In this document: in pieces, positions 11,085 through 50,669 of the stretch
How the letters are laid out: each line of letters begins with the position of its first letter
Position numbering within the stretch: position 1 is the first letter of the stretch
NCBI GenBank assembly: GCA_026397475.1
Contig: JAPLUT010000005.1
Span: forward strand, 124,001 to 188,000
DNA: 64,000 nt
Origin: a candidate division SR1 bacterium
Lineage (GTDB): Bacteria; Patescibacteriota; Gracilibacteria; Absconditabacterales; Absconditicoccaceae
Direction of reading: 5' to 3'
Notes under the pieces: generated by a model
The model's input: only the letters and a program-made list of their open reading frames with translations
Database searches by the model: none
Told to the model about the DNA's origin: nothing
Program-made: the position numbers and the translations under genes

Positions 11085-11121
11085 AGATTAAAAAAATATT
11101 AAGATTAAAATATTAATACGC
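11085..11121 (+). repeat. Left AT-rich repeat arm of four-helix-bundle cassette 1
   Basis: A run of 'agattaaaa/tattaa' units lies just before the gene at 11151. It is the approximate reverse complement of the arm at 11541-11585 (aaaatcttttaatattatta...). Together they bracket the four-helix-bundle gene as an imperfect inverted repeat. Confidence 0.5.
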
Positions 11122-11150
11122 GAAAATTTAGTAGATAACAATATGTGAAA

Positions 11151-11540
11151 ATGATAATTACGCAATTTGAGGACATGGAAATTTGGAAGAATGCTATAGA
11201 ACTTTCAATGATTATCTACAAAACTACAAATCAAGGCGAATTTAAAAAAGATTTTTGACTTAGAGATCAAATAAGAAGAGCTGCAAATTCTGTTAGCAGC
11301 AATATTGTAGAATGATTCGAAAGACAAAATAATAATGAATTTATTAGATTCTTGAAAATAGCAAAATGAAGTTGCGGTGAGGTCAGGAACCAAACATATA
11401 TTGCTTTAAATGCCTGACATGTAAACGAATCAAACTTTGAAATTCTTAGAAACTCCTCTCTCGCTCTATCCAAACAAATCTCATGATTTATTAAGTATCT
11501 CGAGAATAATAGGAAACAATGAAACTTCAAAACAAAATAA
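11151..11540 (+). CDS. Four-helix-bundle protein, S23/IVS type
   Basis: 129 residues matching the four-helix-bundle family first found in 23S rRNA intervening sequences: FEDMEIWKNAIELS at the start, then RDQIRRAANSVSSNIVEGFER, then EFIRFLKIAKGSCGEVRNQ. Glycines in VEGFER and AKGSCGE are TGA codons. The biochemical role of free-standing members is unknown; relatives include the accessory protein of diversity-generating retroelements, but no reverse transcriptase is seen here. A paralogue lies at 19476-19841. Both are bracketed by imperfect inverted repeats. ATG 11151 chosen because the upstream ATG reads straight into TAA. Confidence 0.85.
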
Positions 11541-11585
11541 CAAAATCTTTTAATATTATTAATCTTTTAATTTTTTAATCAATAC
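11541..11585 (-). repeat. Right AT-rich repeat arm of four-helix-bundle cassette 1
   Basis: aaaatcttttaatattatta followed by atcttttaattttttaatc, an approximate reverse complement of the left arm at 11085-11121. Confidence 0.5.
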
Positions 11586-18245: not shown

Positions 18246-19436
18246 CTAAGCTATTTTGGCTAAAGTTTCAAAGAATTTTGCGATATCTGACTCATCATTG
18301 TAGATATATCCGCTCATCCTACAGGTGCCTGATTTTTTAAAACGTTTGTGGAGTGGATATGCACAGTGACCACCACAACGAACTGCTATATTGTCCTCAG
18401 AAAATCTTTCTCCGATGGAATTGAAATTCGAAGTATTGGAAAGGAGGAAAGAAAAAACCGCCACTCTCTCGGTAGTTAAGGGTCAGAGAATTTCTACCTT
18501 ATCTTTGAATTTTGAAAATCCTTCTACACATAACTTTACGAGTTTCTGCTCATGTTCTCGAATTTTTTTCATACCTCAAATTGATTTAATATATTCCAAT
18601 GCCTTCAAAAGACTTACTGCTCAAATAATGTTTGGGGTACCCGCTTCGAACTTGTCGGAATTCCCGATTAACGTATGTCATTGCATATCAACATCTTCGA
18701 TCGTTCATCCTCAACGGATCATGGGAACGAGTTTTTTAAGCCATTCTTTTTTGAGATAAGCGACACCGATTCCCGTATACGCCATCATTTTATGCCCTGT
18801 GAATATCAAACAATCACATCCGATATCTTGTACATCGACTGGAAAATTTGCTACAGACTGAGAACCGTCAACCATAAAAAAAGTATCCTCACGAAGTTTA
18901 GATTTTATTTTTTTGACGTCATAAATTTTTCCGGTAACATTAGAAACTTGCGCCACAGAAACTACCTTTACCTTGTCATTATATTTCTGATCAAAATCAT
19001 TTCGATCGATTTCATATTCTTCGGTAATATTGAAAAATTCTATTTTAAATCCCCTTCTCTCTGCTAACACTTGCCAAGGAAGCACATTAGAATGATGTTC
19101 TCGAATGCCTAGTAAGACTGTATCTCATGCTTGTAAAACATCGCTAATAACGAGAGATTGAGCGATGAGATTTATTGCATAGGTAGAATTATACGTATAG
19201 ATAACTTCACTGGTTTTACAGTTGAGGAGTTCGCCCACAAGCTCTTTGGAGCGATGATATGCTGCCTCTGATTTTTCTGAAAGCGAATACAATCCTCTAT
19301 GAATATTCGCATATGATGAAGCAATAAAATCAGAAACCCCGTCAATGACGTACTGAGGTTTTTGTGTAGAGGCCGCATTGTCTAGGAAGACAAGTCAGGG
19401 GTTATTTTTGAATATGGGAAAGTCTTTTTTAAACAT
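18246..19436 (-). CDS. sufS: Cysteine desulfurase, SufS type
   Basis: 396 residues, PLP-dependent class V aminotransferase fold. It takes sulfur from cysteine as a persulfide for Fe-S or thio-nucleoside synthesis. LDNAASTQKP and ANIHRGLYSLSEK are typical of the N-terminal part. The PLP Schiff-base Lys216 sits in TGHKMMAYTGIG, and the persulfide Cys358 in RCGGHCAYP. No sufBCD or sufU is nearby in the window. A DUF59 gene at 44720 is a possible distant partner in Fe-S assembly. Start ATG 19434-19436; a second TGA-Gly lies in QAGDTVLLG. Confidence 0.95.
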
Positions 19437-19437
19437 A

Positions 19438-19475
19438 GTCGAAAGTCTGTAAGGTCTAAAAGTCGAAAGTCGTAT
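19438..19475 (+). repeat. Left arm of four-helix-bundle cassette 2 (AGTCGAA repeats)
   Basis: GAAAGTCTGTAAGGTCTAAA then AGTCGAAAGTCG. The reverse complement of the arm at 19860-19903 reads GTCTATAAAGTCAAAGG then TCCGTAAAGTCGAAAGTCG, so the two arms form an imperfect inverted repeat around the gene. The same AGTCGAA/AAAGTCA units occur inside uvrA at 34743-34822. Confidence 0.7.
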
Positions 19476-19841
19476 TTAAGTGGTTTGGTGTAAGTATGTT
19501 ATAAATTTAGATATCATTTTTGAAATCTCAACACAAAGAGCACTTATTTCCGTAAAATCTTTTTCTTGTATATATCATTGATCATATGCTATATATAATT
19601 GAGACCTAACTTCTCAACAAGATCATTTAGCGATAAATAAAAATTGTTTAAACTCCTTATCTGTATTTCTTTCAAATCACTCAGCAATATTACTTACTAT
19701 AGAAACAGATGCTCTTCTTATTTGGTCCCTCAATCATCGATCTTTATTAAAGTTATCTGAACGAGTTATTTCGTAAATTCTATTTGTTAACTCTCTTCAC
19801 TTTTTCCATGCCTGAATGTCTTCAAATGTTTCTATTTTCAT
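19476..19841 (-). CDS. Four-helix-bundle protein, S23/IVS type (second copy)
   Basis: 121 residues, same family as 11151-11540: FEDIQAWKKGRELTN, RDQIRRASVSIVSNIAEGFER, KQFLFIAKGSCGEVRSQLYIA. TGA codons give the glycines of AEGFER, AKGSCGE and DQGY, so no ORF over 60 residues is seen in the standard code. It sits between sufS and the deaminase gene with an inverted repeat at its two ends, like a cassette inserted between two unrelated genes. Function unknown. Confidence 0.85.
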
Positions 19842-19859
19842 TATATATTATTAATGATA

Positions 19860-19903
19860 TAAAAACGACTTTCGACTTTACGGACCTTTGACTTTATAGA
19901 CTG
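19860..19903 (-). repeat. Right arm of four-helix-bundle cassette 2
   Basis: CGACTTTCGACTTTACGGAC then CTTTGACTTTATAGAC, the inverted partner of 19438-19475. It ends two bases before the stop of the deaminase gene. Confidence 0.7.
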
Positions 19904-19904
19904 T

Positions 19905-20372
19905 TTAATATTGAATTTTATCTTTTTTTTCACTCCACTGCTTGAATACTTCTAAAGCCTCGTCGTGAAGCAATTGTTCTACAGGAATATTTCTTTGAGA
20001 AAAATGTTTTTTGATATCTTCATGAAATGCACTATCGTCAAATCCTATATCAGCGGCATCTTTTTCTGTATTTGCATAATAAATCTTCTTGATTCTTGCT
20101 CGCGAAATCGCTCAATAGCACATCGGACAAGGCTCACATGAAGTATATATTTCGCAGTCATGTAAGTCGAATGTAGATAAATTTCTGCAAGCGTCGCGAA
20201 TTGCGACTACTTCTCCATGCGCTGTCGGATCATTAGTAGAGGTTACCTCATTCTGTCCTCTCCCTACGATTTTTCCATCTTTTACAATAACAGCAGCAAA
20301 AGGTCATCCAGAGTTCTTCTGTATATTTTCTAGGGAAAGTAGGATAGCTTCTTTCATAAATTCTTTTTGCAT
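19905..20372 (-). CDS. Cytidine/guanine deaminase-family zinc enzyme
   Basis: 155 residues with the zinc deaminase signature: His and Glu in TAHGEVVAIRDA, and the two zinc cysteines in YTSCEPCPMCYGAI. NSGGPFAAVIV and the overall length fit guanine deaminase (GuaD) or the TadA branch. The C-terminal region DAADIGFDDSAFHEDI is GuaD-like, so guanine to xanthine is my preferred reaction, with tRNA adenosine or another nucleoside as alternative. TGA gives the second Gly of SGGPF and the Gly of YGAI, both conserved. Confidence 0.88.
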
Positions 20373-20399
20373 GATATACAACAGCACAATAAAAGTTTT

Positions 20400-21931: not shown

Positions 21932-22663
21932 ATGCAACTTTTCGTCACTGAATATCAAAAAAAAGATAAAAATATCATCATCACCAATGATGAGCTTTTG
22001 TCTCAACTCAGAAAAGTTCTCAGGGCACGCATAGGAGATATTATACGAATTCAAAGCCCAGACATTGAGTCGACAAAAATAAGATACGAGCTTTCTATAG
22101 ACGTTTGGGATAATAAAATTATTGAATGAACTATTGTTTCTGAACAAAATCATACCGGTTCTCATGAGCAAAAAAGTATGATTATCGCTATGCCAAATAA
22201 ACGAGATAAAATTGAAATGATCGTCCAAAAACTCACCGAATGTGGTTTGGATCAGATTATATTTTGGCCTTCTGAAAGATCTATTATCAAAGAATGGAAT
22301 CCAAAAAAAGAAGAAAGACTTCATAAGATTATCAAGGAAGCTACTGAACAATCTCGATGACGAAACATTCCTAATCTTAAATTTACTACGGATATTACCA
22401 AATATTTACAAGATACAGAGCTTGTCGTTTTCGACAAATCTGGAATGAGTAATAAGGGACAAAAAACAAAGACAGAATCTAAGATCCAAGATCTAAGTTC
22501 TAAGATCTGATTGATCGGGCCCGAAGGAGGACTTACCTCAAAAGACTATCAAATTTTTGAATGAACAAATTATGCTACTTATGAACTTGGCGAAACGGTA
22601 TTGAGAACTGAGACTGCAGCGATTATTGGAGGACGATTGATAAAAAACAATTTTAATTCTTAA
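21932..22663 (+). CDS. rsmE: 16S rRNA m3U1498 methyltransferase RsmE
   Basis: 243 residues. N-terminal PUA-like domain (QLFVTEYQ, RKVLRARIGDIIRIQ) and SPOUT methyltransferase domain with KIEMIVQKLTECGLDQIIFW, IKEATEQSRGRNIP, then GLIGPEGGLTSKDY and LGETVLRTETAAI. It methylates N3 of U1498 in 16S rRNA. I start at ATG 21932 because family members begin M-x-LFV; ATG 21872 would add a hydrophobic tail not typical of RsmE. A heptamer repeat tract at about 22478-22515 encodes the segment before GLIGPEGG. Confidence 0.92.
22478..22515 (+). repeat. Heptamer repeats inside rsmE
   Basis: TCTAAGA-TCCAAGA-TCTAAGT-TCTAAGA-TCTGA: five units of 7 bp in frame. They encode SKIQDLSSKI just before the conserved GPEGG loop. 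Confidence 0.75.
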
Positions 22664-26606: not shown

Positions 26607-27107
26607 TTAGTTCATGCTTACAGTTTCTCAAATCGTCGGTATAACTCAATCATCCAAAAAAACTTCGTTTCACTCATTTTTTTGGCGGTTGAGTATATCT
26701 TTTAATCCTCTTTCCAAAATAAGCATCGCACTTACCGTATCTTCAGCGGCATTTTTTTTGAAATTTGAAGTAATTTCACCGGATTGGACACTGGTGTAAT
26801 CTTCCTCAACGAGCTGGATTTCTATTTCTCTATTTTCAATAATGTATCCGAGGCTTTTCATAAATCCTTGAATTTTTGCTTGGATATCTTTTTGCTTGCT
26901 GGGTCGTCAGAGCATGATTTTTCCGACATTATGTTTTTCGATAATACCTGCGACATTGAAATACATCATCTGATCATTGAGGATGTATCCTACAGGAAAA
27001 ATTACGTCGCTTCCTGGAAGTGCGTATGCTAAACCTATATATCTCGTTCATCGATCGATACCGAGGATAGATTTAGTTTTGCGGTGATTTGTTTGCATAA
27101 AAGACAT
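26607..27107 (-). CDS. ruvX: RuvX/YqgF-type Holliday junction resolvase-like nuclease
   Basis: 166 residues with an RNase-H fold: SILGIDRGTRYIGLAYA (family D-x-GT-x-x-x-G motif, with the Gly of DRG written TGA), KIMLGRPSKQ, VEEDYTSVQSGEITSNF, and AAEDTVSAMLILE with the second acidic pair. Members mature pre-16S rRNA ends and have been linked to Holliday junction processing. The N-terminus carries about 12 extra residues; a second Met follows at position 4. The neighbour on the same strand is tsaB, another essential translation-related gene, with a heptamer element between them. Confidence 0.85.
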
Positions 27108-27217
27108 AATTAACAATTAACAATTAAAAATTAATAATTAATAATGATGGGATATCTTTGTATTAAAAAATATACCAACATTATTCATTTTTCATTATTC
27201 ATCTTTCATTAATTCAT
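27108..27217. repeat. About 105-bp heptamer element between ruvX and tsaB
   Basis: TAACAAT-TAACAAT-TAAAAAT-TAATAAT-TAATAAT on the left, a core with GATGGGATATC and AAAAAATATACC, then TTCATTT-TTCATTA-TTCATCT-TTCATTA on the right. The right array is the approximate reverse complement of the left. The tsaB stop lies in the right array. Confidence 0.75.
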
Positions 27218-33980: not shown

Positions 33981-34119
33981 TTTGGAATTTATATATTCTC
34001 CTTCAAAATTATATTCAATTTTGATTGAAGAATATATACTTACCAACCCAATAATTTCTCATTACATATCGAACTTATCTGATTGGTAAACTACAAATTT
34101 AAATTTGGAATTTATAACC
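33981..34119. repeat. AT-rich repeat/dyad region before uvrA
   Basis: TTTGGAATTTATATATTC recurs as AAATTTGGAATTTATAACC next to the uvrA start, and GAATATATActtac faces TATATTCTCC. It has the look of the heptamer elements but the units are degenerate. No gene seen. Confidence 0.45.
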
Positions 34120-37100
34120 ATGGCAAAGAAAACAGCTGATAAACATATCATCCAAAACGTCGGAAATATGGAAAATAAAATCACCTTCCAGTGAGTAAAG
34201 ACGCACAATTTGAAAAATATAGACATCGAGATCCCGAAAAATAAGTTGATTAGCATCACCTGAGTTTCTGGTTCTGGAAAGTCCTCTCTAGCCTTCGATA
34301 CGATTTATAAAGAAGGACAGTATAGATATATCGAATCTCTTAGCTCATATCTAAGACAGTTTTTTAATTTATGAGAAAGACCAGAAATTGATCATTGTAG
34401 CGGACTTTCGCCTGCCATAGCAATTGAGCAAAACAAGAAAGCTGGAAACTCAAGAAGCTCCGTTGGGACACTTACAGAGATAGACGACTATCTTAGGTTA
34501 TTATACGCAAAGCTCGGCGATAGTTATTGTTATAACTGTGGAAAGGAAATTAAACCACAGACGATTGAGCAGATTATGACTGATATTCAAGACCACTATA
34601 TGAAACAAAAAATATATCTCTTACAAGAATCTGGAAAGTTTGAAAAGAAAGAAAACCTTGTTGAATTTGTTAAAAAAAATAGAAATAAAGTAGAAAAGTG
34701 AAAATGATTTACCCGTTATTTGCTTGTCGCAGACAACTTAGTCCCTAAAGTCGAAAGTCAAAAGTCAAAAGTCAAAAAAAGTGTCGACCTTACGACCTGA
34801 TGACTTGAAGGACCTTCGACTAAATTAGATCCGATTGAGTATTTCTATCTAGAAACACCTAATGTCCCTGCCGAATATTTCCCGCTTAATGCCTATGGTA
34901 TTTATGATCGTGTGACCGTAGAAGATGAAAAAATGGGAAGACTAAAAGAAGATATTATCAAGATACTCGCAGAGTTTAAAAAGTTTGGAATCTACATTAC
35001 TGAGAACTCAAGTAAAAAAGCTAAAGTAAAAAATGAAATCCATCGGTTTACAGATAAGATGTATTGTCCTGACTGTAATATAACGTATCCTGAATTTACT
35101 CCGCAACATTTTTCTCCCAATAGACAAGAATGAGCATGTAGCACATGTCACGGTATCGGAGAAATTCTGCAGATAGATTTTGATAAGATGCTCGACCCCG
35201 TAAGCCCGTATATGAAGGCGATTTTGCCATGGAGAGATTCGAATCTCGGGCAATCATTACTTTTGAAATTATCACAAAAATACAGTATCGATCCTGATAA
35301 ACTTTGGAAAGATTTGCCGGAATGGTTTCAACATGTAGTTCTCTTCTGAGATGAAGAGCTCCTTAGAGTAAACTATGGCGGAAAATTTATTAGTATGACC
35401 TACAAGTGAATCGAAGAAATCATCAAGGACCAATATGCGAAATGACTCTTGACCGTAGATTTCCAAGCGATGTTGAATATGAGGGATTGTAATGAATGTC
35501 ATGGAACGAAATTAAAAAAAGAAAGTTTGAATGTATTCTTAACATTTAAATTGGGAACAGGGAGCAAGGAGCAGGGAGCAGGAAAACTGAGACTTGGAAC
35601 CTGAAACCTGGAACCTGTAACCAAGTTTAATATCGCGGACTTACAAAGACAACCGCTTAATGAATTAATCACCTTCGTGGATCTCTATAAAGAACATGCA
35701 AGTAAAGCAGAAACATTGCTTCAGAGAATAATCAACCCGCTAAATGATAGAGCAAAAACTATTCAAGAACTAGGACTAGGATATCTCAGTCTGCATAGGG
35801 GAATAGATACACTTTCGGGAGGAGAAATTCAAAGATTGAGACTAGCGAAACAGCTATGAAATAAATTGACGGGGATTATTTACGTACTTGATGAACCGAC
35901 GATTGGACTCGATGATAAAGAGATTCAAAGAGCTATCACGGCGATAAAAAATTTGAGAGAAATGGGAAATACCATCGTCGTTGTAGAACATAATGAAACC
36001 TTTATCAAAGCTTCTGACCGAGTGGTAGAGATTTGACCGGGCGCTGGAGACTTTGGTTGAAACCTTATGTTTAACGGAACCTATGATGATTTTCTAAAGT
36101 CTGATACGCTTACTGCGCAATACATTCTTGGCAAGAAAAAAGTATCGATTAATTTTGAACATACACCAAGTAATAATGTTATAAAAATAAAAAAAGCCTC
36201 GAAGTTCAATCTCCAAGGTATTGATGTTCAGATTAAATTATGAACCTTTACCATCATCACATGACCGTCAGGAGCTGGGAAAACTACGCTCATGTATACA
36301 ACCTTGTTTAAATTTTTGAATGACAAACAAAAGTTTATCCAGAGCTTTATCAGATTGGAACTTTTGAAAAAATGACGAAGCTGGCAAGACATTCTTGCTG
36401 CACCCGTCATGAATAAAGAAAAATATGAACATTATGAAAACTTAGCGCTGCAAGAATTTCATAAAGACTTAGGCGTAGAAACGATCATCGGGCATGAAGA
36501 GATTAAAAATACTATTTATGTCGACCAAACGAGCATCGGAAAAACACCAAGATCTTGTCCTGCTACCTTTATCGGAACTTTTGATCATATCAGACAGTTG
36601 TATGCAGGAACCATGGAGAGTAAATATTTATGATTCAACTCAAGCTATTTCAGCTTCAACTCTGCTAAGTGAGCTTGCCCTGCTTGTGATGGATATGGAT
36701 ACAAAAAAATAGAATTACAATTTCTTCCTGACACCTACATCCCTTGCGAACTTTGTCAGGGGAAAAGATATAAGACAGAAATTTTGTGAATCAAACGAAG
36801 AGGAAAAACTATTTCTGAGATTCTTGGAATGTATGTGAAAGACGCCTTAGAATTGTTCTCTGAAATCGACCATATCCGCGAAGAATTGGAACTTATGGTT
36901 AAAATCGGGCTTGGGTATTTGAGAATGGGGCAACCGGCGCATACGCTTTCTGGTTGAGAAAGTCAGAGATTGAAACTTGTAAAACATTTATTGAAGTCGT
37001 ATAAGGGACACACGATGTACTTTTTAGATGAGCCGACCGTGGGATTGCATTCTGAGGATATTGTAAAATTATTGAAAGTGATCAAAGAATTTTTGGATAA

Positions 37101-37194
37101 AGGCGACACTATTCTGATGATTGAACACGACAAGAGTATTTTGAAATTCGCAGATGAGGTAATTAGACTAGAAAATGGGAAATTAGTGAAATAA
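34120..37194 (+). CDS. uvrA: Excinuclease ABC subunit A
   Basis: 1024 residues, ABC-type ATPase that scans DNA for bulky damage and loads UvrB. First Walker [16 protein letters not shown] near residue 47, zinc cysteines YCYNCGKE and MYCPDCN, CxxC pairs CSTCHG and CNECHG, signature [16 protein letters not shown], then VLDEPTIGL. Second half: Walker [23 protein letters not shown] and [34 protein letters not shown] codons give conserved glycines of both P-loop regions and of SGGE. Two heptamer-repeat tracts are translated in frame (34743-34822 and 35550-35630). A complete and probably functional gene. Confidence 0.96.
34743..34822 (+). repeat. In-frame heptamer element inside uvrA (AAAGTCA family)
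   Basis: AAAGTCG-AAAGTCA-AAAGTCA-AAAGTCA, then a right part CGACCTTACGACC and GAAGGACCTTCGAC that is its imperfect inverted partner. It encodes a Lys/Ser-rich then Gly/Thr-rich insert ([11 protein letters not shown], then LTTGGLEGPS). The units match the arms of cassette 2 at 19438-19903. Confidence 0.8.
35550..35630 (+). repeat. In-frame heptamer tract inside uvrA (GGGAGCA/GGAACCT family)
   Basis: GGGAACA-GGGAGCA-AGGAGCA-GGGAGCA, then GAGACTT-GGAACCT-GAAACCT-GGAACCT. About eight 7-bp units encode [21 protein letters not shown] between the zinc-binding part and the first signature motif. One TGA within it is read as Gly. Confidence 0.8.
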
Positions 37195-38419: not shown

Positions 38420-38448
38420 AAAAAAAATCTCCTTAGGGAGATTTTTTA
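38420..38448 (+). terminator. Terminator of the DUF1846 gene
   Basis: AAAATCTCC and GGAGATTTT form a stem with a 4-nt loop, followed by a T-run. Confidence 0.85.
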
Positions 38449-38552
38449 ATTAATAATTAATAATGAATAATCCCTCGGGACAAGTGTTGGTATTTATTTA
38501 TTAAATCAGCCTTTCACACATTTTTCATTATTCATTTTTCATTATTCATTAG
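38447..38552. repeat. About 105-bp heptamer element, CTCGGGACAAGTGTT core
   Basis: Left array TTAATAA-TTAATAA-TGAATAA, core CCCTCGGGACAAGTGTTGGT followed by an AT-rich stretch, right array TTCATTA-TTCATTT-TTCATTA-TTCATTA. The core recurs nearly unchanged at about 45447-45470. Confidence 0.8.
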
Positions 38553-38556
38553 TTTT

Positions 38557-40329: not shown

Positions 40330-40369
40330 ACTCGGGAATGCTTGATGTAAAAATTGTACTTTTTTATTT

Positions 40370-40432
<63 letters not shown>

Positions 40433-41842: not shown

Positions 41843-43093
41843 ATGCAAAAAAGAAAATATTTTTTCTCCCAACTCAAAACATCTACGCAAATTAGCCTGA
41901 AGTTTACCCTATTTACCGTTCTTCAGGTTTTACTTTTTAGTATACTTGCTAATGGGATATTTTTTCAAAACTGGTACAACAGACAACAATGACAAATCCC
42001 CCCATGAGTAAGACCCGTTCTCAGTCAAAAAATGATTCTAGGGAAAAACCGTGCGCCAGAAACAGAAATATTCGATATCGATAGCCCAGAAGGAGAAACT
42101 CTTGAACAGTCTCATCGAATAAAATCGATCGCAAAGATTGATGATATGTATTTTATGTATAGACAGGTTGGCAATAAGTTATTGGTAACGAACGTCACTC
42201 CTCACATAATAGTTCAAAGAAATCTCATCTGGATTAGCATATATTTGATGATATTTTTTGGCATAATAGCATATATTTCTTCACTTTTCTTTGTCAAAAC
42301 ATCGCTCAGAAAACTCAATGAATTACTCTGATTTCTTGATCAACTCCATATCGATAACTTAGATCAACAGATAGTTATCTCTGGACATCCTCAAGATGAG
42401 ATCAATAGAGTTAGTCAAAAATTTAATGAGGTATTGGAAAAAATACATAAACAAACGATAAGCCTCAAAGACTTTGTTACTAATGCATCACACGAACTTA
42501 AAACTCCCCTTATGAGCATGAGCACAGAAATAGACTATACCAACAAAACTAAAAACTATGAAACGGGACTCGACAATCTTAAACAACAACTTAAGGGAAT
42601 GAATACATTACTAGAGACATTGGTTACTATTAGTAAACTTGAAACTTTGGAAAAATTAAAAAAGGGAACAACTGATATGACTTCACTTACCGAAACAACT
42701 CTTCATGATAGCCAAAAGATTTATCAATACAAAAATATTAAGCTAAATACAAAGATACAAAAAAATATTATTAAAAATATAAATAAGGACAGTCGGAATA
42801 TTATAGTAAAAAATATTTTGGAAAACGCATATAAATTCACTCCTGAATGATGAATGATAGATATTAGTTTGGATAGTAAAAAATTAGTAATCAAGGATAC
42901 TGGAAAGTGAATCTCAAATAGTGATATAGAGCATATTCGAGAAAGATTTTGGCAGGCTGACCGCTCCAAGACTGATACTAAAAGCTTTTGACTAGGCTTG
43001 TATCTAACGAAATTGCTTGTAGAAAAACATGGACGAACCATAACTATCAGCAGCAAGATTAATAAAGGAAGTGTGTTTACAATCGCCTTCTAA
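41843..43093 (+). CDS. Sensor histidine kinase
   Basis: 416 residues. Two spans (about 19-40 and 130-155, WISIYLMIFFGIIAYISSLFF) flank an extracytoplasmic sensor of about 90 residues. A HAMP-like linker leads to the H-box TNASHELKTPLMSMSTE, then N-box (IVKNILENAYKFTPEGG), G1 (IKDTGKGISNSDIEHI) and G2 (SFGLGLYLTKLLVEKHG). The middle Gly of DTGKGIS and the Gly of SFGLGL are TGA codons at invariant ATP-lid glycines. It phosphorylates the response regulator encoded 38 bp downstream. The signal is unknown. Confidence 0.92.
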
Positions 43094-43131
43094 TTTTAAA
43101 TTTAGAATTTTAAATTTTAAATTTTGTTTCT
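43094..43131 (+). repeat. AATTTTA heptamer tract between kinase and regulator genes
   Basis: TTTTAAATTTAGAATTTTAAATTTTAAATTTT, in 7-bp units, fills the 38-bp gap of an otherwise tight operon. Confidence 0.65.
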
Positions 43132-45413: not shown

Positions 45414-45525
45414 TTTAATGAATAATTAATAATGAAAAATGAATAATCTCTCGGGACAAGTGTTTGTATTTTTTTATTTAATAAATATTTTCCATCATTA
45501 TTCGTTGTTAGTTGTTCACTGTTAG
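45414..45525. repeat. Heptamer element with CTCGGGACAAGTGTT core (second copy)
   Basis: Left array TGAATAA-TTAATAA-TGAAAAA-TGAATAA, core CTCTCGGGACAAGTGTTTGT and an AT-rich stretch, right array CATTATTCGTTGTTAGTTG then TTCACTGTTAG. The stop of the next gene lies in the right array. Confidence 0.8.
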
Positions 45526-47899: not shown

Positions 47900-48055
47900 T
47901 TGCATTGTGAAATATTCTAAAAATCATCAGAATAGTAGTGGTTTTCCAATAAAAATCAAATAAAAAATGGAAATAGCTGATTCATGATATGAGACATAAG
48001 ATACAATATAAAAGCAGTTGTATAGATATATATTTTTAGTAAACATACACTGAAT

Positions 48056-48092
48056 TTAAAATTCAAAACTCAAAATTTAAAATTTAAAATTA
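48056..48092 (+). repeat. TTTAAAA heptamer tract before truB
   Basis: TTTAAAA-TTCAAAA-CTCAAAA-TTTAAAA-TTTAAAA-TTA directly before the truB ATG. The remaining region 47900-48055 is AT-rich without a gene. Confidence 0.75.
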
Positions 48093-48099
48093 CGTTATT

Positions 48100-48892: not shown

Positions 48893-49324
48893 GTGGCATT
48901 CTCTCAAAAAACGAGTACTCCTTCCGTCGATACTTTCTCGCATGCAATAAAAAAATGTCGAAGTAGAGAAACTTCTGGTGCGCCGGAAGAACGATCTGAA
49001 AAAAATCCTTCGCGTGGACAATGCTTAGCAACTGCTCTTCTTGCAAATGAGGTTTTGTGATTGTCGGTATACGCAGAGAAACTTACCCTTGCCAGCAGAA
49101 CATTGTACCACTACTTCAATAAAAATGAAAACGATGAAGACTATCGTTTTTGCGCAGAACAGCTTACTCATTTTGAAATACTTGAAAGACAAAAAGAAAG
49201 ATTATTGGGTAAAGACCAACTCAATGTACTCTTGGAACAGAATCCAGGAATACAACAAAGGTATGCGTTACTTAAAAAGACATTTCAAACGGAGATACTA
49301 CAGAATTTAGAATTTAGAACTTAG
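48893..49324 (+). CDS. Unknown protein, 143 residues
   Basis: GTG start after an in-frame TAA at 48887. The frame crosses one TGA (VLGLSVYAEKLTLASR). The first half is basic and Ser-rich; the second is helical and charged (FEILERQKERLLGKDQLNVLLEQNPGIQQRYALLKK). The middle, TLASRTLYHYFNKNENDED, could be a DNA-binding helix pair, but I recognise no family. A good promoter sits just upstream, which supports a real gene. Starts at inner codons remain possible. The last residues are encoded by an AGAATTT heptamer tract. Confidence 0.55.
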
Positions 49325-49331
49325 ATTCTCA
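49306..49331 (+). repeat. AGAATTT heptamer tract
   Basis: AGAATTT-AGAATTT-AGAACTT-AGATTCT at the end of the preceding frame. Its stop codon lies in the tract. Confidence 0.6.
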
Positions 49332-50571: not shown

Positions 50572-50669
50572 AACAATTTGAAATTTGAAATTTATAATTT
50601 GAAATTTTGAAACACTGTTAGTGAGTTTTAAAATTGTAAATTTCGCCTTTAAAATTTAAAATTACTCCA
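50572..50669. repeat. AATTTGA heptamer element before yebC
   Basis: AATTTGA-AATTTGA-AATTTAT-AATTTGA-AATTTTG, a core with AACACTGTTAGTGAGTTTT, then AAATTTCGCCTTTAAAATTT and AAAATTACTCC. The right part approximates the reverse complement of the left. Confidence 0.75.

Follow-up and report, generated by a model that had tools for sequence, protein, structure and literature searches.

How does a gene known so far mainly from inserts in rRNA genes come to lie, enclosed by inverted repeats, between two protein genes of a Patescibacteria genome? The gene encodes a four-helix-bundle protein of the family PF05635, the 23S rRNA intervening-sequence protein, whose function has been a question since the early 1990s. 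It lies in a window of 64,000 nucleotides (the whole stretch of DNA analysed here) from a 1.17-Mb genome in which TGA encodes glycine, as indicated by the TGA identity of the stops within matches and by long open reading frames (ORFs) that appear under code 25 only. The gene itself (19476-19841, minus strand) is likewise an ORF under code 25 only. Its 121-aa product matches PF05635 with 133.6 bits (cut-off 33.8), one of eight such matches in the genome, and its closest solved relative is XCC0516 (PDB 2gsc, E 5e-15). Comparison of the gene in the window's genome (G000) with its same-site counterpart in a congener (G007) gave a dN/dS of 0.086; the protein is under purifying selection.

The whole gene-bearing element (19437-19904, minus strand) fills the gap between the stop codon of a cytidine/deoxycytidylate-type deaminase gene upstream (19905-20387, minus strand) and the start codon of sufS, a class-V aminotransferase gene, downstream (18246-19436, minus strand). 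It holds no transposase or other catalytic domain, PF05635 being its only Pfam match. An earlier note on this DNA had described inverted arms around the gene. These are borne out, the best pair between them being 20 nt at 95%, with the amendments that the left arm begins at 19437 rather than 19438 and that the element takes up the entire gap. The arm downstream of the gene (19437-19478, plus strand) is built of AAAGTCG/AAAGTCT-type heptamers and the arm upstream (19860-19903, plus strand) of GACTTTC/GACTTTA units in inverted orientation. The 11-mer AGTCGAAAGTC occurs twice in the former and once, inverted, in the latter (19860-19900). Across the 1.17-Mb genome it has only eight exact copies (reversed control, 0): three are the arms of the element, one lies in uvrA and four lie at other gene-less sites.

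The uvrA copy belongs to one of two in-frame heptamer inserts in a 1029-aa ORF (34105-37194, plus strand, code 25). The first insert (34743-34823, plus strand) has inverted arms of the AAAGTCG/AAAGTCA family and no gene, just as the earlier note had read it; the arms described there as shared are, however, common to element and insert as a family of repeat units and not as one fixed arm sequence. The second insert (35552-35625, plus strand), also gene-less, consists of GGGAGCA/GGAACCT heptamers. In congeners, the first loop holds GGGAGCA/AACCTGA (G003) or GGAACAA (G008) and the second AAAGCCC (G003) or AAAGATG (G004 and G006), while G007 has the AAAGTCG family in both loops and G001 has short, array-free loops. 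Because the same loops hold other families, or are short, in congeners and relatives, we reject the possibility, raised in the earlier note against its own reading, that the repeats are an ancient, conserved part of UvrA; both their family and their presence vary. Two further ORFs of the same genome (C3:141466, stretch L014 1450-1640; C6:26844, L015 1440-1540) also carry in-frame AAAGTCG-family inserts. The peptide encoded by these (KVESQ.., GPST) resembles that of the uvrA insert, and a Pfam search of both ORFs named no family.

Repeats of this kind are found throughout the window. A second PF05635 gene (11145-11540, plus strand, 131 aa) has an upstream arm of AT-rich ATTAA units (11086-11119, plus strand) and an inverted downstream arm (11544-11581, plus strand). 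Gene-less heptamer hairpins lie at 27104-27209 (AATTAAC/TTCATTA, with related arrays in the same gap of G003 and G008) and at 38441-38554 (AATTAAT/TTCATTA), and gene-less arrays at 22476-22510 (GATCTAA), 40360-40407 (ACTTTAT), 43092-43127 (AAATTTA/AAATTTT), 45415-45448 (AATGAAT), 48053-48093 (AAAATTT), 49297-49329 (GAATTTA) and 50573-50607 (GAAATTT). A scan of the window for periodic runs returned 15 at lag 7 and none at lags 5, 10, 11 or 13. The GGGAGCA- and GATCTAA-type arrays have no matching gene among the PF05635 genes of this genome. Across the syntenic stretches of five congeners (70-80% identity) the arrays vary by species, and one family, TTAACAC/GCTAAGT, is present at three different places.

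The arrangement was then compared across 80 loci from many phyla, collected by search with the protein, and the eight of the window's own genome, giving 86 with usable flanks. Windows lying 500-2000 nt away served as controls, and arms were scored as present where the inverted repeat across the gene lay above the 99th percentile of these. By this measure inverted arms span the gene in 66 of the 86 loci (the count includes two pairs of loci that are nearly identical) and in 1% of the controls (median scores 38 and 18); in the other 20 loci no arms were detectable. Neighbouring genes of 100-300 aa have such arms in 3% of cases, and randomly cross-paired arms of different loci pass the threshold in 11%. 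The two arms of a locus match each other far better than such cross-pairs do: each locus has its own single heptamer family, and no one end sequence is common to all. The flanks show autocorrelation at lags 7 and 14 and less often at 8 and 9; lags 4-6 and 10-12 show none. An unsupervised model of the flanks with period 7 recovered T-Y-N-M-A-R-G, that is AAAGTTN. Upstream of the gene this consensus lies on the strand of the gene, downstream on the other one; it occurs in 47% and 58% of flanks, the rates being 1.2% in controls and 5-8% when the wrong strand is read. In some elements (L052, L068) the units are 8 or 9 nt long, not seven, and share a conserved core resembling GTTCAA.

The placement of the elements raises the question of whether the arms act as RNA. 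Both neighbours are co-oriented with the element gene in 53 of 64 cases and both opposed in two, while 148 of 217 control pairs of adjacent genes lie on the same strand; median gaps to the neighbours are 55 and 65 nt. Sense placement inside operons is what would be expected of a promoterless gene. It would also suit transcript hairpins as binding sites of the four-helix protein, through which mRNA is regulated, stabilised or guided in its processing; the gene-less hairpins would then form the regulon of the protein, and the arms next to its gene an autoregulatory site. The hairpins of rRNA intervening sequences (IVSs) are indeed RNA structures cut by RNase III (PMC4990558), and the number of arrays scales with the number of PF05635 genes, as described below. 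We nevertheless consider this explanation unlikely, given the many unrelated heptamer families within one genome, the turnover of sites among congeners and the in-frame inserts within uvrA. A signature of RNA pairing was also sought and was absent: on the sense strand, arm mismatches of G-U type numbered 72 and those of A-C type 90 (p 0.18). The lack of a G-U excess is a mild argument against upkeep of the arms as RNA, and DNA-level over RNA-level action is weakly favoured. The earlier note had offered the protein as a mobility or RNA-processing factor; the mismatch test does not favour the second role, and the first is taken up below.

Some sites are filled in one genome and empty or differently filled in another. 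The deaminase-sufS gap holds the gene-bearing element in G000 and G007, gene-less hairpins of three other families in G003, G005 and G008, and a short heptamer remnant next to an unrelated hairpin in G002. An empty site between these genes, which the earlier note had envisaged, exists in the more distant relative G033, where the gap is 11 nt. The hairpins of this gap in G001, G002 and G010 (L132, L133, L134) are heptamer-free (AACAAATCC..GGGATTTGTT; CCCTCTCC-type). As non-heptamer hairpin elements occur there too, the gap appears to be a general insertion spot.

A second such site lies on Nostoc plasmids, in the gap after a TraM-domain gene. C052 and CCNP1411 have a gene-bearing element there, C057 p057_K and UHCC 0926 have an empty site, and ATCC 53789 and C057 p057_H have gene-less arrays of other units. 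The elements of C052 and CCNP1411 are identical at 486 of 489 positions (99.4%), whereas the adjoining segments are 75-96% identical and the C052 flanks are nearer to the empty plasmid of C057. Occupancy is thus polymorphic, and the element is more alike than its flanks. Homologous exchange could also cause such same-site replacement, and no single transposition event was caught in these comparisons. Target-site duplications were absent from the deaminase-sufS and C052 sites and none was convincing overall, the one candidate being a possible 4-bp GTCA duplication around an AATTCAA-type gene-less insertion in C057 p057_H (L167 1121-1462), judged against the empty site of UHCC 0926 (L171). Calothrix plasmids 1 and 2 were rejected as evidence of movement, as there the gene lies within a shared multi-gene segment.

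The gap between cas6 and cas4 is a third variable site. It measures ~24 nt in Nostoc sp. UHCC 0302 and holds a PF05635 gene in Anabaena sp. 90 and in Pseudanabaena galeata, with arrays that differ between the two. The two PF05635-bearing loci (L161 2137-2914; L173 791-1472) are unrelated cyanobacterial loci of type I-D, and their repeat families differ; the element of Anabaena sp. 90 has a 3' arm that extends into the annotated start of cas4. An earlier report, which gave no explanation, had already placed PF05635 genes close to cas4/cas6 in cas loci (PMC3936711).

Using a 25-nt heptamer pattern that covers some heptamer families only, we found arrays in 83 of 204 PF05635-positive and 6 of 176 PF05635-negative Patescibacteria (380 genomes in a mostly metagenome-assembled sample; OR 19, p 8e-20). 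The share of genomes with arrays is 3, 20, 25, 50 and 74% at 0, 1, 2-3, 4-6 and at least 7 PF05635 copies, respectively. The reversed pattern itself picks up some heptamer families; with it included, the counts are 125 of 204 and 13 of 176. A test stratified within GTDB families, tallied by hand and a coarse phylogenetic correction, gave an OR of 26 (p 3e-7). Of 148 Flavobacteriales, 38 of the 65 PF05635-positive and none of the 83 PF05635-negative genomes have the pattern, a contrast to which genome size contributes, as many of the negative genomes are small. Gene-less arrays therefore depend on the PF05635 gene at the level of the genome. In the window's own genome none of the five pattern hits is at a PF05635 gene, so the relation between arrays and gene is one in trans. 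The strongest exception is G258, a 0.6-Mb genome with 46 pattern hits and no PF05635 match. The earlier note had allowed that the arms might be confined to the gene's surroundings; gene-less copies proved common, and the four-helix gene is statistically tied to dispersed gene-less arrays in both Patescibacteria and Flavobacteriales. Phages were rejected as carriers after a search of 50,697 phage records returned no hits.

This association also weighs on three further explanations. Slippage and fold-back errors might make the arrays passively, with the four-helix gene a hitchhiker or selfish gene that lands or persists at hairpins. Array lengths are variable, and heptamer repeats are common in several bacteria with no described mechanism (PMC4692102, PMC4679880), as this account would have it. 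It is quite unlikely in our view, because arrays are nearly absent from PF05635-negative genomes in two phyla, with a dose response, and because period 7 is specific and both arms of a locus keep one family. Alternatively, some unrelated enzyme, for instance a RAYT/Y1 transposase, could move the arrays in trans, with the four-helix gene as cargo. Movement of hairpin repeats by Y1 transposases is known from REP/RAYT systems, the window's genome has one PF01797 gene, and among PF05635-positive genomes PF01797 adds somewhat (69% versus 50% with arrays). In PF05635-negative genomes, however, arrays are equally rare with and without it (7% and 7%). Having no predictive power where PF05635 is absent, PF01797 was rejected as the mover, and we regard this explanation as very unlikely. 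Finally, the protein might serve a reverse transcriptase, as Avd does in diversity-generating retroelements (DGRs), with hairpins spreading as cDNA. The element's protein has a weak match to the Avd-like profile PF22296 (24 bits, below cut-off), homology of Avd and PF05635 has been published (PMC10053308), and a sense-strand bias would fit. Array frequency is independent of the reverse transcriptase gene (PF00078), at 63% and 60% of PF05635-positive genomes with and without it, and a reverse transcriptase was rejected as the driver, which makes this account extremely improbable.

Taken with the sites that are empty or filled otherwise in related genomes, the recurrence of the layout across phyla points to a mobile element of a kind not described before. 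We think it probable that this is a widespread small element with a four-helix protein that acts on heptamer arms, that it has gene-less derivatives, and that rRNA IVSs are one class of its insertions. The complete form would consist of inverted arms of tandem ~7-nt units around one promoterless PF05635 gene. Its protein, which has a homopentamer as solved relative and is related to Avd, a protein of DGRs that handles nucleic acids, most likely binds the heptamer arms or their fold-back hairpin, probably at the DNA level. We infer this binding, a cutting and joining enzyme, and movement driven by the protein, which together with cellular enzymes would move or copy its own element and the gene-less hairpins. 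Targets would be operon gaps and tolerant loops of proteins. Complete elements settle sense-wise in operons, where read-through presumably provides the transcription that the gene relies on, and rRNA IVSs would be insertions of the same class that landed in rRNA genes. Against mobility stand the lack of a catalytic domain and arms that differ between loci, unlike ordinary terminal inverted repeats.

A wider proposal, which we make tentatively and rate as somewhat short of probable, is that of a pan-bacterial class of elements with no transposase, recombinase or reverse transcriptase, in which a small Avd-like four-helix protein reads a 7-nt periodicity, not one particular sequence, and spreads hairpins with and without the gene. 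The rRNA IVSs, heptanucleotide repeats and in-frame protein inserts would then be products of one system. The tie between arrays and this gene would explain the reported presence of PF05635 genes in CRISPR-cas operons close to cas4/cas6 (PMC3936711), and it would show how essential proteins, UvrA among them, can gain in-frame segments from short repeats. The heptamer repeats of cyanobacteria, Xanthomonas and Beggiatoaceae have previously had no mechanism. With arrays tied to PF05635 in two phyla, both the function of the intervening-sequence protein and the origin of heptamers become testable in culturable strains.

Several known systems resemble parts of this picture. The earlier note had likened the element to a transposon and its MITE. 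Gene-bearing and gene-less copies with the same kind of arm, inverted ends, and occupied and empty sites agree with that likeness. The element has no transposase, the AAAGTCG family that it shares with the first uvrA insert is replaced by other families in other gene-less arrays, and no target duplication was convincing. Rickettsia palindromic elements are in-frame repeat inserts in protein genes, as found here, and differ in forming single-sequence families, for which we know of no linked gene. In REP/RAYT systems, too, hairpin repeats scattered over a genome depend on a gene that the genome carries, but that gene encodes a Y1 enzyme, and PF01797 does not predict the present arrays. Avd (PDB 4DWL) and PF05635 (PDB 2GSC) are related four-helix-bundle families (PMC10053308); the arrays here show no dependence on a reverse transcriptase. 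The heptanucleotide (STRR-type) repeats of cyanobacteria, Xanthomonas and Beggiatoaceae are, like those described here, tandem 7-mers that are dispersed and mostly intergenic. Heptamer arrays have been described in Xanthomonas and Nostoc, the Xanthomonas unit being GGGAATC with ~70 cases as inverted pairs (PMC4692102), and the TAACTGA heptamers of Beggiatoaceae have no known mechanism (PMC4679880). Compared by their published descriptions, the Xanthomonas and Beggiatoaceae reports make no link to PF05635, and we found no paper in the open-access literature that connects PF05635 genes with dispersed heptamer arrays. A parallel in both gene and layout is the 23S rRNA IVS with its S23/IVP ORF, as in Coxiella and Leptospira, and the 16S/23S inserts of CPR bacteria, in which PF05635 occurs within several inserts of both kinds (PMC11270868). 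There too a PF05635 gene lies in sense orientation in an inverted-repeat loop, and in Coxiella tandem GACAGAT heptamers lie just upstream of the same gene (PMC4990558). Unlike the rRNA IVSs, the present elements lie outside rRNA, in operon gaps and protein genes of many phyla, and the genomes that carry them also hold gene-less copies in abundance.
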